Position numbers and translations under genes: made by a program | DNA from: an uncultured Marinoscillum sp. | Lineage (GTDB): Bacteria; Bacteroidota; Bacteroidia; Cytophagales; MED-G16 | DNA length: 64,000 bases | Assembly: GCA_902626505.1 (NCBI GenBank) | Contig: CACOFQ010000007.1 | Location: 1 to 64,000 of the forward strand | Direction of reading: 5' to 3' | Notes under the pieces: model-generated | The model's input: the letters and a program-made list of their open reading frames with translations, nothing else | Database searches by the model: none | Told to the model about the DNA's origin: nothing | Part shown: positions 5,150 to 11,845 of the stretch, in pieces | Numbering within the stretch: position 1 is the stretch's first letter | How the letters are laid out: the number at the start of each line of letters is the position of its first letter

Positions 5150-6685
5150 TTAAGGTTTTTTAATTTCATCAATATAGCCCATTTCAAATCTTTTAATATC
5201 AGATTTTACGTGTTCCTTTTTAAAAATATCTTTAAATTTTTTTATTATTTCTGGATACTCAGATGAAATATCATTTTGCTCCTTCAAGTCATCAGAGATA
5301 TTATATAATTCAATTTTCTTATTTCCTTTCTTTATATCTTTTAAAATAGCTTTATAGTCTCCTAATCTAGCTGCTTGCTGACCTCCGTAGGAAGGAAATT
5401 CCCAGTAAATGTAGTCTCTTTCTAAAATTTTACCTTCATCTATAAATATATCTACTAGACTAACTCCATCTGTAGAGTAATCATATAGGTCATTTACTCC
5501 AGATAATTCACTTATTGTTGGAAAAATATCATATGAAATAGATACATCATCTACAGTTCTAGAATTTTTAATTTTATCCGGCCAAGAAACAATAAAAGGT
5601 ACTCTTACTCCACCTTCATAAGTATAACCCTTCATTCTCTTAGGATCATTTTGAAATAAGCCAGTACTATTAAAATATTCAAAATCAACACCTCCAGCAT
5701 ATGTTGGACCATTATCACTGGTAATTAAAATGATAGTATTATCATAAATATTTAATCTTTTTAGCTGCTCTATAATTTCACCAACTTGGATATCTATATA
5801 TTCTATCATAGCAGCATAAGTTGCTCTTGGATACCTAGTTGGAAAATATCCTTTATCACCTAAATAAGGTTCTTCGTCCCCAATTATTTGCCTGTACTTG
5901 TCTACTAAATATTGTGGGGCCTGTAAAGGAGCATGAGGTATTGGGCTTGCATAATAAAGAAAGAATGGGTTATCCTTATTATTTTCAATAAATTCCTGTG
6001 CTCTAACGTGCATTTTATCAGGAGCATAATCATTTTGATTAAAAACTTTATAATTTTTCTCATCATATGGATCCTCACCTGCTTGAAGTTTTAATCTAGG
6101 TGATATGACCTCATTATTCAGTAAATCTCTATTTTCATTTTCCCATAAATGAGGTGGATAAAGATTATGAGCCATTCTTTGACAATTATATCCATAGAAA
6201 TAATCAAAACCCATTTCTGTTGGAATAGATGTAGAATTTGGCGGACCTAACCCCCACTTCCCAACCATTCCATTACTATATCCTACACCCTTCAAAAGTT
6301 TTGGAAATATTAATGCTGATTTACCTATAGGATACTGACCCTCTAAGTTTGGGTCTTCAGACATCTTATGATAATCCCATACATCTCCCCTACTTCCATA
6401 CTCATGATTACCTCTAATTTTAGTGTGACCACCATGTAAACCAGTAAGTAAAATACTTCGAGAAGGAGCACATACTGGTGATCCAGAATAAAAATTAGTA
6501 AACTTTAACCCATTATTTGCAAGATTATCAATATTCTTTGTTTCAATTATTTTTTGACCATATACTCCTAATTCACCATAACCTAAATCATCATAAAAAA
6601 ATAAAATAATATTAGGAGTATCATTTTGAGATATGTTGCAAGAGGATAATAATAAAAAAAGAAAAAAAATTGAACTTTTAGTCAT
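5150..6685 (-). CDS. Arylsulfatase-type sulfatase lipoprotein
   Basis: A 511-residue type I sulfatase. The formylglycine signature C-x-P-S-R is present as Cys72-Ala-Pro-Ser-Arg76, with metal-ligand Asp32-Asp33 near the N-terminus and a 'ITSDNGPTY' metal-binding block further on. A lipoprotein signal ends at Cys16 ('LLLSSC'), so the enzyme is probably anchored to an envelope membrane. Type I sulfatases need a formylglycine-generating enzyme, which is not encoded in this window. It lies 22 bases after pntB and 2 bases before the GH109-like gene, which suggests joint action on a sulfated glycan. The substrate cannot be told from the sequence. Confidence 0.93.
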   Translation of the reverse strand: MTKSSIFFLFLLLSSCNISQNDTPNIILFFYDDLGYGELGVYGQKIIETKNIDNLANNGLKFTNFYSGSPVCAPSRSILLTGLHGGHTKIRGNHEYGSRGDVWDYHKMSEDPNLEGQYPIGKSALIFPKLLKGVGYSNGMVGKWGLGPPNSTSIPTEMGFDYFYGYNCQRMAHNLYPPHLWENENRDLLNNEVISPRLKLQAGEDPYDEKNYKVFNQNDYAPDKMHVRAQEFIENNKDNPFFLYYASPIPHAPLQAPQYLVDKYRQIIGDEEPYLGDKGYFPTRYPRATYAAMIEYIDIQVGEIIEQLKRLNIYDNTIILITSDNGPTYAGGVDFEYFNSTGLFQNDPKRMKGYTYEGGVRVPFIVSWPDKIKNSRTVDDVSISYDIFPTISELSGVNDLYDYSTDGVSLVDIFIDEGKILERDYIYWEFPSYGGQQAARLGDYKAILKDIKKGNKKIELYNISDDLKEQNDISSEYPEIIKKFKDIFKKEHVKSDIKRFEMGYIDEIKKP

Positions 6686-6707
6686 AGTTCAATTTAAAAA
6701 ATTTTTT

Positions 6708-8084
6708 CTAGAGATTTTTAAGCTCTGATGATAATCTTTGAAGACTTTCCTTTGCATCTCCAAAATACATTTTATTATTTTTCTTAAAAAATAAAGGATT
6801 TTGAACACCAGCATATCCTGCTGACATACTTCTCTTCAGAACTACAGTTGATATTGATTCCCATACTTTCAGAATTGGCATACCATATAAAGGACTGGAT
6901 GAATCATCAATAGCATCCGGATTAACAACATCGTTTGCTCCTATTATTACAGCAACATCAGTAGATTTAAATTCTTCGTTGGCTTGATCTAATTCGATTA
7001 ATTTAGAGTAATCAACATCTGCCTCAGCTAATAATACATTCATATGTCCAGGCATTCTTCCAGCAACTGGATGTATTGCATACTTAACCTCCACATCGTT
7101 TGCTTCTAATGATTCCTGAATTTCTTTACATAATTTTTGTGCTTGAGCAACTGCCAAACCATAACCAGGAACAATGATAACTTTATTAGAATAAAATAAT
7201 TGAACAGCAAAATCAGAATCTGATATTTCTTTAATATCACCTTGTTCCTTATTTTCATTAGAAGGACCACTTGAAGAAAAACCTCCTATTATTACATTTA
7301 ATAGGGATCTATTCATGGCATTACACATTAATAGTGTTAAAATGGTTCCAGCTGCACCAACTAATATTCCACCAAGGAGCATAACTATATTTCCAAAAAT
7401 TATACCCGTAAGAGCTGCCGTAATTCCAGTAAATGAATTTAAAAGTGAAATAACAACTGGCATGTCTGCTCCACCAATTGGAGCAACAAAAAATATACCA
7501 TAAACAAATGATAGAAATATTATTAAATATAAATAAGTAACATCTGAGCTTGAGATAAATAAGTATGAACAAACTAGAATCATAAAAATAAAAACGATAT
7601 TTATTATATGTTGAAAAGGAAGAGTTAATTTTTCTGACCACTTATACCCATCAAGTTTTGCAAAAGCGAGTAAACTTCCTGTAAAAGCAACAGAACCAAT
7701 AAATAGACTAGATAATAGAACAACCACTACTATAATTTCATATGCATCTGGAAAAATAATCCATTTATTTATCTCTGTAAAAGACAGTAAAACTGCGCTT
7801 AGTCCTCCTAAACCATTAAAAATTGAAACCATCTGAGGCATTGATGTCATCTCAATTTTTTTCGCTATTATATAACCTAGTGTAGCAGAAACTGATAAAG
7901 GTATAATAATCCAAATTAAATTTGATTTAGAGTTTTCTAGAGGCATAATTACTGCTGAAAAAATTGCAATTAACATACCTAAAGCTGCAAATTTGTTTCC
8001 CTTACTAGCAGAAGCAGGATCACTCTGCAGTCTCAAACCCCAAACCAATAAAAAAGCAGAAAGTAAAAATAAAAACTTTTCCAT
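6708..8084 (-). CDS. pntB: NAD(P) transhydrogenase subunit beta
   Basis: A 458-residue subunit of the proton-translocating transhydrogenase, which uses proton inflow to reduce NADP+ with NADH. The N-terminal 265 residues hold about nine membrane helices (domain II). The C-terminal NADP-binding domain III shows 'VPGYGLAVAQAQ', 'GRMPGHMNVLLAEA', 'IGANDVVNP' and 'KRSMSAGYAGV'. The length is normal. The start codon overlaps the pntA2 stop by one base (TAATG), which implies translational coupling. It is followed 22 bases later by the sulfatase gene, an unusual neighbour. Confidence 0.97.
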   Translation of the reverse strand: MEKFLFLLSAFLLVWGLRLQSDPASASKGNKFAALGMLIAIFSAVIMPLENSKSNLIWIIIPLSVSATLGYIIAKKIEMTSMPQMVSIFNGLGGLSAVLLSFTEINKWIIFPDAYEIIVVVVLLSSLFIGSVAFTGSLLAFAKLDGYKWSEKLTLPFQHIINIVFIFMILVCSYLFISSSDVTYLYLIIFLSFVYGIFFVAPIGGADMPVVISLLNSFTGITAALTGIIFGNIVMLLGGILVGAAGTILTLLMCNAMNRSLLNVIIGGFSSSGPSNENKEQGDIKEISDSDFAVQLFYSNKVIIVPGYGLAVAQAQKLCKEIQESLEANDVEVKYAIHPVAGRMPGHMNVLLAEADVDYSKLIELDQANEEFKSTDVAVIIGANDVVNPDAIDDSSSPLYGMPILKVWESISTVVLKRSMSAGYAGVQNPLFFKKNNKMYFGDAKESLQRLSSELKNL

Positions 8085-8398
8085 TATCCTTTCTTCTTTT
8101 TATTAAACATCTCAAGCATTCTATTTGTAACAAAAAAACCCCCAAAAACATTAATAGAACCGACAAATAATGCTATACTAGCAAGAATTAGAGTAAAATA
8201 ATTATCTGTCTCTGTTGTTCTTATTAGAATTATTGCACCTAAAATAACAATTCCACTTATTGCATTTGCTCCAGACATAAGTGGTGTATGAAGAACTGAA
8301 GGAACCTTTGAAATTACCTCAAAACCTAATAAAATCGTGAAGAGTAGAAGATAAATTAATATCTCATTATCAATTAAAAAACTTAATATTTCATTCAT
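8084..8398 (-). CDS. pntA2: NAD(P) transhydrogenase subunit alpha part 2
   Basis: A 104-residue membrane subunit with three or four helices, carrying 'VPSVLHTPLMSGANAISGI', the conserved signature of the PntA membrane domain. This is the separate small subunit seen in three-gene transhydrogenases such as that of Rhodospirillum rubrum. It starts 2 bases after pntA1 and overlaps pntB by one base. Confidence 0.97.
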   Translation of the reverse strand: MNEILSFLIDNEILIYLLLFTILLGFEVISKVPSVLHTPLMSGANAISGIVILGAIILIRTTETDNYFTLILASIALFVGSINVFGGFFVTNRMLEMFNKKKKG

Positions 8399-8400
8399 AA

Positions 8401-9459
8401 TTAAATTTTACAATTTTTTAAAATATCATCATCATCATGAATAAATTCGTTATCCTTAATGATATAATTAATGAAATTATAAACATTATTAGAGAAAAGA
8501 TTACTTGCATCATAAGATAGTTCAGATGCTAGATAAGAATTACCTACAATTTTAATACCATTATAATCTACTATTTTAGAATCTTCTGTCAATTCACAAT
8601 TTCCACCAGTAGAAGAAGCTAAATCTATTATCACTGTTCCAGAATTCATTTTTTCAACAATATCTTTAGAAATTAAGACTGGTGATTTTGATCCAAATAC
8701 TTGAGCAGTAGTTATTACAACATCTGCCTGAACTAATCTTTTTGAAACTTCTTCTTTCTGTTTTTCTAAATACTCTTTTGATTGCTTAACAGCATATCCA
8801 CCAGCAGTTTTATCTTCCACAGCTCCATCAACTTCTATAAACTTTGCACCTAAACTTAAAACTTCTTCCTTTGCAGCTTGTCGTGGATCAGATGCTTCTA
8901 CTATTGCACCAAGTCTTTTAGCCGTAGCTATAGCCTGTAATCCAGCAACTCCTGCACCTATAACTACTACTTTCACAGGTTTTATACTCCCTGCAGCAGT
9001 TATGGTCATTGGAAATATTTTTGGCAATAATTCTGCAGCCTTTATAATTGCTTTATATCCAGATAATCCTGCCATAGAGGACAATATATCCATGCTCTGA
9101 GCTATTGTAGTTCTTGGAATCATTGAAAGATCGTATGCAAGAATTTTATTTTTTTTAATTTCTTTTTTTAATTCTTCTCTATTTTGGTCAACACTAAAAT
9201 TTGATATGAGAACTTTACCTTTATAGTCATTGAGCATACCAAAACTAGAAGAGTTTACAGATAAAATAACATTGCTATTTTTAATTAATTCTTTTCTTGA
9301 ATAGAACTTAGCATTATTATATCTTGAATCAGAAAATCCAGATAAAATACCGGCATTTTTTTCTATAGAAACTTTATGTCCCAGTGAAATAAATTTTTCT
9401 AAAGTAGAAGGAGTTATAGAAACTCTAGGTTCATTATCTTTTAAAAAACCAAATTGCAT
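8401..9459 (-). CDS. pntA1: NAD(P) transhydrogenase subunit alpha part 1
   Basis: A 352-residue soluble NAD(H)-binding domain I of the transhydrogenase, related to alanine dehydrogenase. Visible signatures are an N-terminal 'EPRVSITPSTLEKF' block, 'MSSMAGLSGYKA'-like helix sequence, and the Rossmann motif 'VIGAGVAGLQAIATAKRLGA' near residue 170 followed by 'SDPRQAAKEE'. It lies 13 bases after the TIGR02206-like gene and leads pntA2 and pntB, so it is probably co-transcribed with the upstream retinal genes. The reading frame is intact and the length is typical for the split form. Confidence 0.96.
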   Translation of the reverse strand: MQFGFLKDNEPRVSITPSTLEKFISLGHKVSIEKNAGILSGFSDSRYNNAKFYSRKELIKNSNVILSVNSSSFGMLNDYKGKVLISNFSVDQNREELKKEIKKNKILAYDLSMIPRTTIAQSMDILSSMAGLSGYKAIIKAAELLPKIFPMTITAAGSIKPVKVVVIGAGVAGLQAIATAKRLGAIVEASDPRQAAKEEVLSLGAKFIEVDGAVEDKTAGGYAVKQSKEYLEKQKEEVSKRLVQADVVITTAQVFGSKSPVLISKDIVEKMNSGTVIIDLASSTGGNCELTEDSKIVDYNGIKIVGNSYLASELSYDASNLFSNNVYNFINYIIKDNEFIHDDDDILKNCKI

Positions 9460-9472
9460 AAGAATAAAACGT

Positions 9473-10180
9473 TTAGTTTTTTAATTTGTTCCTCAAAATT
9501 GGTGAATTAAATAGATGATAAGTGAAATAAAGGAGAAAAAACACTACGAATTCTAAATTAACAAGATAATATGGCCACCCACCAGAAACAAATGGATGAT
9601 CTACAGCTGGAGGATATTTTAAATACATATAATTAGCATCAATCATAAAATCAATTGGCATAATAATAATCAGGAGTACATTTATAAATATGAATGATTT
9701 TAACCAAGAGTATTTAGATAGTCTCATATCCATGTAATAGTACATATATAAAGGAAGAATAATTATAGAGGTATGACTATAAAAGTATTCAAAATAAAAA
9801 AAATTTTTACCTGTATAATTATCAATTAATGGAGTTATTAAAGCATTTAAACCTCCCAAAATCCCTGCATAAAATAAAAATTCAAATAAAAATTGTTTTT
9901 TGTCAACAAATAGAATTACACAAGTTATCATAGATGATATACCGCATAGATGAAGTGGAAGCCTTTTATTTAAACTCCACGTCCCATCAACAAAATGAAA
10001 ATAATGGAATAGTATATACATTACTATAAAAAAATAGACAAAAACAATAGCAAATTTCTTCATAAAATCTTTTGAAGAATATTTTCCGATTAATAAACAA
10101 GTAATTAAATATACCAAAGACAAAGAATTGGCAATAATCCAATCATTAGACATAAAAGTTATTGAATAATCAATATCCAT
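9473..10180 (-). CDS. TIGR02206/YwaF-like integral membrane protein
   Basis: A 235-residue protein with about six or seven hydrophobic helices. The 'LPLHLCGISS' motif near residue 95, 'GGLNALITPL' and a C-terminal aromatic helix match the TIGR02206 (YwaF) family of conserved membrane proteins, whose function is unknown. It begins 2 bases after the Blh gene and ends 13 bases before pntA1, so it sits inside the retinal-transhydrogenase run. That placement hints at a role in envelope energetics or pigment handling, which is inference only. Confidence 0.75.
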   Translation of the reverse strand: MDIDYSITFMSNDWIIANSLSLVYLITCLLIGKYSSKDFMKKFAIVFVYFFIVMYILFHYFHFVDGTWSLNKRLPLHLCGISSMITCVILFVDKKQFLFEFLFYAGILGGLNALITPLIDNYTGKNFFYFEYFYSHTSIIILPLYMYYYMDMRLSKYSWLKSFIFINVLLIIIMPIDFMIDANYMYLKYPPAVDHPFVSGGWPYYLVNLEFVVFFLLYFTYHLFNSPILRNKLKN

Positions 10181-10182
10181 TA

Positions 10183-11058
10183 TTACTTATCATTTACAAA
10201 ATCTTTCATAATAAATACGTGAGGCAATGTAAGACTTGATATTATTATAAAAACAAATAAAATCAAGTTATCGGTTGTCAAAATATTATTATTAAAATAA
10301 TAAAGAACTAGTCCGAAAACGACTGCAAGTAAAGTGAAAGGCAATGTCTTAAGATAAAATCTAAAAAAACTTTTTTCTTTCATCTCTTGATATTCCATTA
10401 ATAACATCGGTAAAGAATGAGAAAAACCAAAAAATATTGAAAATGAGGTTAATATATCAGTATGGTAAAATATTAAATAAAGAATAGAAAGCTCTGCATA
10501 CAAAGGAACTTTTCTTCTAATATCAAAATATACTACTGACATCATAAGCACAGCCACAGATATTAATAAGAAAAATATATTTTCAAATGATGAGAGGTTT
10601 AAGGAACTAAAAAAAGTAAAATCAACGAGTATCTCTTGTAACTCAAAAATATTGTTAAGAAAAAGAGATAACAAAATATTAGCACCGATAACAAAATTTA
10701 ATAACCTGTTATCAGTTGAATTATATCCTATAACTTGAGTTTCTCCAAAATGGTAACATGAGACTAATAGGAATATAAAAAGTCCCAAAAAAGGAGAAAG
10801 CACCCATACTAAAATATTTAAAGCAATTAAAACTAAATAGATAGAAAAGAAACTAAATCTACTGCTAAATCTCCTTGAATTAGGATTTATAAAAGCAATA
10901 ATATGATCTACAGAACCATGAGGAATTCCAATAGTAAGCATTATCAAAATAAATATAATACTAGAATAAGAATCACCTACATCAAAAAAAATAAGAGATA
11001 AAGAGAAAATTAATCCTACAATTTTGGCGGGAAGAATATAATTTTCTGTTGAAACCAT
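10183..11058 (-). CDS. blh: Brp/Blh-family beta-carotene 15,15'-dioxygenase
   Basis: A 291-residue membrane enzyme of the Brp/Blh family, which splits beta-carotene into two retinals, the chromophore of proteorhodopsin. Key family features are visible: 'GIPHGSVDH' near residue 45 (His ligands), 'YHFGETQ' near residue 104, and 'GFSHSLPMLL' near residue 210, all within a multi-helix hydrophobic protein. It lies 61 bases downstream of the proteorhodopsin gene on the same strand, and a hairpin in that gap may lower its expression relative to the opsin. Carotenoid synthesis genes themselves are not in this window. Confidence 0.93.
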   Translation of the reverse strand: MVSTENYILPAKIVGLIFSLSLIFFDVGDSYSSIIFILIMLTIGIPHGSVDHIIAFINPNSRRFSSRFSFFSIYLVLIALNILVWVLSPFLGLFIFLLVSCYHFGETQVIGYNSTDNRLLNFVIGANILLSLFLNNIFELQEILVDFTFFSSLNLSSFENIFFLLISVAVLMMSVVYFDIRRKVPLYAELSILYLIFYHTDILTSFSIFFGFSHSLPMLLMEYQEMKEKSFFRFYLKTLPFTLLAVVFGLVLYYFNNNILTTDNLILFVFIIISSLTLPHVFIMKDFVNDK

Positions 11059-11068
11059 AGGTTAATAT

Positions 11069-11096
11069 AAAAAAAAAGGTGAGGAAAACCTCACCT
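11069..11096 (-). terminator. Hairpin terminator between proteorhodopsin and blh
   Basis: A perfect 7-bp stem, GGTGAGG (11078-11084) and CCTCACC (11089-11095), with a 4-base loop. Read on the minus strand it is followed directly by a run of eight or more T. This is a classical intrinsic terminator for the opsin transcript. Because blh starts only 20 bases beyond it, it may act as a partial terminator that makes opsin mRNA more abundant than the downstream genes. Confidence 0.85.
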
Positions 11097-11119
11097 TTAA
11101 TTTTATTGAATATAATTAT

Positions 11120-11845
11120 TTATTTGGCAGCATACCATACAGCCATACCGAATCCAATCTTATTGATTGCATCACCTATATTATAAACAACATCCATGTT
11201 AAATGGAATACCAGCAACTAAACCAGAATACCATCCGTCAGTTCCCATCATATATCCAATAGGATAAATAGCCCATCCAACAAGGACAAATCTCTGTAGC
11301 ATTTTACCTGCTTCAGGAATTTTTCCACCAGCTTTTGCTAATGCAGCTCCTGTCTCACCAGTTGGTCCGCCGACAAGAGTCAAACAACCTACTTCGTAAG
11401 CCATCCAGAAGTATGCTAAACCAGCAATCAGTCCCCAACCTAAATCAGCAGGAAGAACTGGAGCTAATCCAGACTCACCCAGATAACCAGTAACTAACAT
11501 AACAACAGAAGCCAAAAATAATTTTCCCATACCTACACCTGTAAGTAGAGCAAACTCTACTACCATAAGAGGTACAGTAAGAATCCAATCTATATATCTA
11601 AGCTCAGTAGGTGAACCTAAACCTTCAGCCCACTGGTCTCTCATATAATAGTAATGTACAGCTGCAATACCAGTAATAAGTGCAGCAACAAGCATCGAAT
11701 CTTTAAATTTCTTGTCTACTTGACCGTGTTGTACTAAAAAGAACACAGTAGCAGCTAACATAGAAACAGATCCTATGAAGAAAGTGAAACCAGTAAAATC
11801 TCCTGGTGCCAAACTTGCTCCTAAAATAAAATTTAACGTATTCAT
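11120..11845 (-). CDS. Proteorhodopsin, green-type light-driven proton pump
   Basis: A 241-residue seven-helix retinal protein. By alignment with the well-studied green proteorhodopsin (GPR), the functional residues are Arg83, Asp86 (proton acceptor, GPR D97), Thr90 (T101), Met94 (spectral tuning site L105), Glu97 (proton donor, E108), His64 (H75), Asp225 (D227) and Lys229 (Schiff-base Lys, K231). The D-T-E triad marks an outward proton pump, and Met at the tuning site is known for green absorption in flavobacteria. Gly138 aligns with GPR Phe152, the position equivalent to the xanthorhodopsin glycine that opens a window for a carotenoid antenna. The protein starts with no obvious cleaved signal peptide. 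Upstream DNA contains palindromes; a hairpin follows the stop. Confidence 0.97.
   Translation of the reverse strand: MNTLNFILGASLAPGDFTGFTFFIGSVSMLAATVFFLVQHGQVDKKFKDSMLVAALITGIAAVHYYYMRDQWAEGLGSPTELRYIDWILTVPLMVVEFALLTGVGMGKLFLASVVMLVTGYLGESGLAPVLPADLGWGLIAGLAYFWMAYEVGCLTLVGGPTGETGAALAKAGGKIPEAGKMLQRFVLVGWAIYPIGYMMGTDGWYSGLVAGIPFNMDVVYNIGDAINKIGFGMAVWYAAK

Follow-up and report, generated by a model that had tools for sequence, protein, structure and literature searches.

A predicted carotenoid-assisted green proteorhodopsin in a small-genome marine Cytophagales bacterium

The window analyzed here is the whole 64,000-nucleotide stretch from the start of contig CACOFQ010000007.1 of an uncultured Marinoscillum sp., and the subject of this study is its proteorhodopsin gene at 11120–11845 on the minus strand. 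The encoded protein is predicted to belong to the Bacteroidota group of proteorhodopsins and to pump protons outward in the light. We consider it probable that it acts as a green proton pump with a zeaxanthin ring in a slot at Gly138, from which energy is passed to retinal and the photocycle is quickened; the binding, the transfer and the photocycle effect are what we infer. By this prediction the protein is an ordinary example of the carotenoid-assisted Bacteroidota proteorhodopsins, a kind described only recently (2023–2025), and it extends the list of likely members to a small-genome marine Cytophagales family, in a host that carries genes for both chromophores.

Pump residues and candidate carotenoid site

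The open reading frame (ATG start, TAA stop) encodes 241 residues that matched PF01036 (E = 1.9e-31) and no other profile, and its product was the sole rhodopsin detected in the host genome (1.55 Mb, 89% complete). A microbial rhodopsin fold was supported by the top PDB matches, which were proteorhodopsins with Z values of 20–21. The residues expected of a proton-pumping proteorhodopsin were present, with codons on the minus strand: Asp86 (11588–11590), the primary acceptor within an R-Y-I-D-W motif, equivalent to Asp97 of the SAR86 green proteorhodopsin (GPR); Thr90 (11576–11578), the second residue of the D-T-E (DTE) triad; Glu97 (11555–11557), the proton donor, equivalent to GPR Glu108; and Lys229 (11159–11161), the retinal Schiff-base lysine, in an invariant alignment column within an N-K-I-G-F-G stretch. 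The spectral tuning site, GPR position 105, is occupied by Met94 (11564–11566), and methionine at this site of proteorhodopsins gives green absorption. An earlier sequence-only reading had named the triad and Met94 as residues of a green-type proton pump, and the alignment numbering agreed with it; D86, T90, M94, E97, G138, Y198, M199, T202 and D203 were all verified on the translated protein.

The same reading had placed Gly138 opposite Phe152 of the SAR86 protein. This was borne out by the L143-A144-x-x-x-M148-x-Y150-E151 anchor in helix E, from which counting proceeds without a gap. The codon of this fenestration glycine lies at 11432–11434 (tcc on the plus strand, GGA on the minus strand), and the residue also corresponds to Gly156 of xanthorhodopsin (XR) and Gly153 of Kin4B8, whose equivalence is given in PMC12308411. 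In helix F, alignment with Table 2 of PMC12308411 identified the tetrad Tyr198-Met199-x-x-Thr202-Asp203 (11237–11254, minus strand). According to that paper, a carotenoid site is marked by the glycine, by a conserved tyrosine (Kin4B8 204) and, for 3-hydroxy carotenoids, by polar residues at 208 and 209; the four helix-F residues are listed near zeaxanthin, and in Kin4B8 the carotenoid ring is lined by the tetrad. Kin4B8 no longer binds zeaxanthin when its glycine is exchanged for a bulkier residue, the S208A replacement lowers binding to 2%, and with Y209F energy transfer drops to about 18%, against about 40% before (PMC12308411). The window protein has the glycine of carotenoid-binding Bacteroidota proteorhodopsins of the NM-R1 and KR1 type, and at the Kin4B8 204, 208 and 209 positions it has Y198, T202 and D203, as in KR1. 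KR1 binds zeaxanthin and lutein in vitro, with energy transfer reported, and apart from canthaxanthin, which did not bind, its behavior was close to that of Kin4B8 (PMC12308411).

Foldseek gave as its best match the zeaxanthin-bound structure of the proton pump NM-R1 (PDB 9JOU). Among solved structures it is also the closest in sequence (E about 1e-57 for 9jov and 9jou; the 9JOV sequence is nearly the same as that of 9JOU). In VIA-align, 9JOU came within the best three matches, at Z 20.2 and a root-mean-square deviation of 3.4 over 209 aligned residues. We take this structure to be linked to Fujiwara et al. (2025, Nat Microbiol). The site sequences are WGLFSGVAYFW and GYMAGTPGWY in NM-R1 and WGLIAGLAYFW and GYMMGTDGWY in the window protein. 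From Trp137 to Trp147, the helix-E segments differ only by F144 to I140, S145 to A141 and V147 to L143, none of which appeared obviously obstructing when judged against NM-R1 alone; a phmmer search with a short helix-E query gave no useful match. The carotenoid site is therefore credible and well supported by homology, and a yellow carotenoid very probably sits next to the retinal, as shown for the closest solved relative of the protein.

Chromophore genes of the host and the proposed mechanism

The blh gene, encoding the beta-carotene 15,15'-dioxygenase of retinal synthesis (10183–11058, minus strand; TIGR03753, E = 5.6e-45; PF15461), starts 61 bp past the end of the pump gene. A carotenoid cluster, crtI-crtB-lycopene cyclase-ispH-crtZ, was found on another contig of the host genome (G000:C9, locus L054), comprising crtI (5681–7156; NF058655), crtB (8982–9812; PF00494), the lycopene cyclase gene (9813–10499; PF18916), ispH (10533–11378) and crtZ (11382–11831), and the genome encodes two polyprenyl synthases. 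PF05834 found no lycopene cyclase in the genome because the host enzyme is of the PF18916 type. The crtZ gene was located by reading the crtB neighborhood and assigned by sequence identity to known hydroxylases: CrtZ had no hidden Markov model match in Pfam or NCBIfam. Its identity is 46% over 98% of its length to a protein annotated as beta-carotene hydroxylase and about 47% to Pantoea plasmid homologues, a range of 46–48% for the annotated and Pantoea enzymes together. A PF04116 search missed it and matched two other sterol-desaturase-type genes (OlsE-like). With crtI, crtB, lycopene cyclase and crtZ, the gene content provides for a 3-hydroxylated carotenoid, most likely zeaxanthin as the hydroxylated end product, and since blh adjoins the pump gene and the crt genes are in the genome, the host could make both retinal and zeaxanthin.

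It is quite unlikely that the ligand is instead beta-cryptoxanthin or another hydroxylated or keto-carotenoid. The model matched by the host CrtI (NF058655) is for a "bifunctional phytoene desaturase/3,4-desaturase", which hints at further chemistry, and the genome is incomplete; against this, CruF, which is required for myxol in Nonlabens (PMC11855829), was not found in the 89% complete genome, giving no sign of myxol, and neither of the two FA_desaturase-family genes matched a ketolase model, one resembling a fatty-acid desaturase and the other an AlkB-like hydroxylase. The failure of canthaxanthin to bind KR1 also argues against this alternative. The AlkB-like membrane hydroxylase gene lies at 1192–2232 of locus L242 (G000:C16); its histidine motifs were read by eye, and it had no NCBIfam match.

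In the mechanism that we propose, retinal from the neighboring Blh would be bound to Lys229, Asp86 would take the Schiff-base proton, Glu97 would donate one back, and Met94 would set the green absorption. The missing side chain at Gly138 would leave a slot between helices E and F, through which the ring end of retinal would face the lipid. A 3-hydroxylated carotenoid, most likely zeaxanthin from the crtI-crtB-lycopene cyclase-crtZ pathway, would insert one of its rings into this slot, where Thr202, and perhaps Asp203, would hold the carotenoid 3-OH close to Tyr198. Blue-light energy would then pass from carotenoid to retinal, and the photocycle would probably be quickened too. The hydroxylated carotenoid favored by the sequence-only reading thus remains the likely ligand, on the strength of the 9JOU zeaxanthin complex, the KR1 tetrad and the host pathway; the reading's remark that zeaxanthin is common in flavobacteria does not bear on this host, which is not a flavobacterium.

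The energy-transfer antenna role suggested in that reading is predicted from homologues, and faster photocycling may be a further effect of the carotenoid or even its main one. Light-harvesting and photocycle acceleration are both named in the titles of the preprint (PMC11855829, ref 37) and the journal article by Fujiwara et al., and what is described for relatives suggests that the carotenoid serves both. A somewhat unlikely alternative is that a carotenoid is bound but chiefly speeds the photocycle or stabilizes the protein, with energy transfer to retinal minor in the cell. The two roles are not mutually exclusive, and energy transfer was reported for KR1, whose tetrad is identical (PMC12308411), which argues against a role in the photocycle only.

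Several points weigh against the zeaxanthin-assisted pump that we favor. The AlphaFold2 model (mean pLDDT 72, pTM 0.68, the predicted local distance difference and template modeling scores) is too coarse for side chains or pocket geometry, so the openness of the pocket is argued from homology only. Two helix-F residues differ from NM-R1, Met200 for Ala196 and Asp203 for Pro199, and Met200 lies two residues after the conserved tyrosine. The absences of CruF and a ketolase are weak evidence in a genome that is 89% complete. Carotenoid binding by this protein is itself a prediction.

Lineage, distribution and gene neighborhood

A glycine at the Gly138 position was present in all 164 rhodopsin rows (about 160 distinct) with the DTE triad and a methionine at the tuning site. 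These rows were drawn from the genus, family and order of the window and from named Bacteroidota; the window is entered twice, and one contig recurs in a few family rows. The named set was gathered partly by the pattern TVPLM[VC]VE, which favors methionine by construction, and not glycine. In a 44-sequence alignment that included Flavobacteriia, G138, Y198 and T202 were invariant, and a 2026 paper describes the glycine throughout its Bacteroidota proteorhodopsins (PMC13043013). Gly138, fixed in all DTE and methionine relatives examined, is therefore neither chance nor unusual for its lineage but the Bacteroidota default, and the sequence-only reading, which had presented it as noteworthy, had picked out the rule rather than an exception. 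Co-occurrence of the glycine with crtZ across the order was uninformative, as crtZ occurs in 246 of 291 genomes and the glycine in all sampled DTE and methionine pumps.

The tetrad ends in Pro-Gly in 51 of 69 order-level Cytophagales rows, where the window family and KR1 have Thr-Asp. The glycine is kept even with Pro-Gly, so it alone is no proof of use, and its fixation in every sampled pump of this type lends something to the idea that the slot is empty or lipid-filled in the cell, the glycine being merely an inherited clade trait. This is unlikely for the window protein, which has the polar pair, whose host genome has crtZ, and whose homologues bind zeaxanthin. The Pro-Gly pumps of Cytophagales may, from their sequences, prefer another carotenoid or none, and Thr-Asp versus Pro-Gly at helix F predicts differing carotenoid affinity within one order. 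As the Bacteroidota default, the glycine brings little beyond the reports of Chazan et al. in 2023, Das et al. in 2025 and Fujiwara et al. in 2025, and the difference in the helix-F polar pair is the more useful hint.

The host is a marine member of the Cytophagales with a small genome, in an order that includes many 3–9 Mb genomes. In the named collection, its relatives are metagenome-assembled genomes (MAGs) labeled "uncultured Marinoscillum" or "Flammeovirgaceae bacterium", with 81–85% protein identity; the NCBI taxonomy puts both names in the Cytophagales, and the earlier remark on flavobacteria accordingly concerns a neighboring group. In a quick maximum-likelihood tree, the family's proteorhodopsins stood beside the flavobacterial set and apart from most other Cytophagales (Shimodaira–Hasegawa-like approximate likelihood ratio test, SH-aLRT, 81); support at the joining forks is modest (81–83) and the root is at the midpoint, and we claim no gene transfer. 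A scan of viral contigs gave no relative. In one MAG from this genus, 62% complete, there is an additional DTE rhodopsin of the gamma type (L002, G007:C56:5314-5970) with glutamine at the tuning site and, in the same alignment as above, phenylalanine in place of Gly138 (the Phe152 position); its proteobacterial look probably reflects binning contamination. A Flavobacterium-type proteorhodopsin was also seen on a contig labeled Bifidobacterium breve (L192, CALPIE020000094.1), a label that looks wrong.

Between the proteorhodopsin gene and blh lies a strong intrinsic terminator, AAAGGTGAGG-TTTT-CCTCACCTTT followed by a T run (11075–11098, minus strand), which occurs once in the host genome. Most relatives in the family share its core stem sequence, though the flanking spacer has diverged, and most flavobacterial loci viewed had terminator-like hairpins of different sequence in the same place, as judged by eye. 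Just downstream of the proteorhodopsin gene, a tightly spaced blh-TMEM164-pntA1-pntA2-pntB block (6708–11058, minus strand; loci L228–L239) continues from blh with a TMEM164-family membrane acyltransferase gene (9473–10180; PF14808, TIGR02206) and the proton-translocating NAD(P) transhydrogenase genes pntA1-pntA2-pntB (6708–9459; 9459–8401, 8398–8084 and 8084–6708). The successive gaps are 2, 13 and 2 bp, followed by a 1-bp overlap. The order from proteorhodopsin through pnt was kept in 10 of 10 other genus members viewed; the sister genus keeps proteorhodopsin and blh only, and no pnt or TMEM164 homologue was found in the flanks of 106 other rhodopsin loci. It is possible, but doubtful, that blh and pnt are co-transcribed and light-induced, so that the proton motive force generated by light, which a zeaxanthin antenna would widen, is partly spent on NADPH. 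The order could equally be explained as neutral synteny; since unrelated flanking genes (symporter, sulfatase, oxidoreductase) are syntenic too, shared order alone is no proof of coupling.

Comparison with known rhodopsins

The SAR86 green proteorhodopsin (2L6X, 7B03; 39–40% identity) shares the fold and the DTE pump residues with the window protein, but its Phe152 closes the opening and its tuning residue is leucine instead of methionine. The Salinibacter ruber xanthorhodopsin (3DDL, 25–26% identity) has the fenestration Gly156 and a carotenoid at helices E and F, but its carotenoid is the 4-keto salinixanthin and its ring site is a hydrophobic Met-Ala. Kin4B8 (7YTB, 8I2Z) resembles the window protein in its fenestration Gly153, its helix-F tyrosine, its polar pair for a 3-OH ring and its hydroxylated carotenoid antenna, but it belongs to the xanthorhodopsin subfamily, with 25% identity and the tetrad Y-A-S-Y. 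Membership of that subfamily was ruled out for the window protein, as 3DDL and 7YTB, at 25–26% identity, fall far under NM-R1 and GPR.

NM-R1 of Nonlabens marinus (9JOU), also a Bacteroidota proton pump, is 47% identical to the window protein in the structural alignment and shares the DTE triad, the methionine tuning residue, the ungapped helix-E Trp-Gly and the helix-F G-Y-M-x-G-T. Its tetrad ends in Thr-Pro and not in Thr-Asp, and the helix E–F region is longer in the window protein. Besides zeaxanthin, N. marinus produces myxol (PMC11855829), whereas CruF was not detected in the host of the window. KR1 of Dokdonia eikasta (BAN14807) has a flavobacterial source, and its likeness was judged on the tetrad; it too is of the proteorhodopsin family, and its Y-M-T-D tetrad is identical to that of the window protein.
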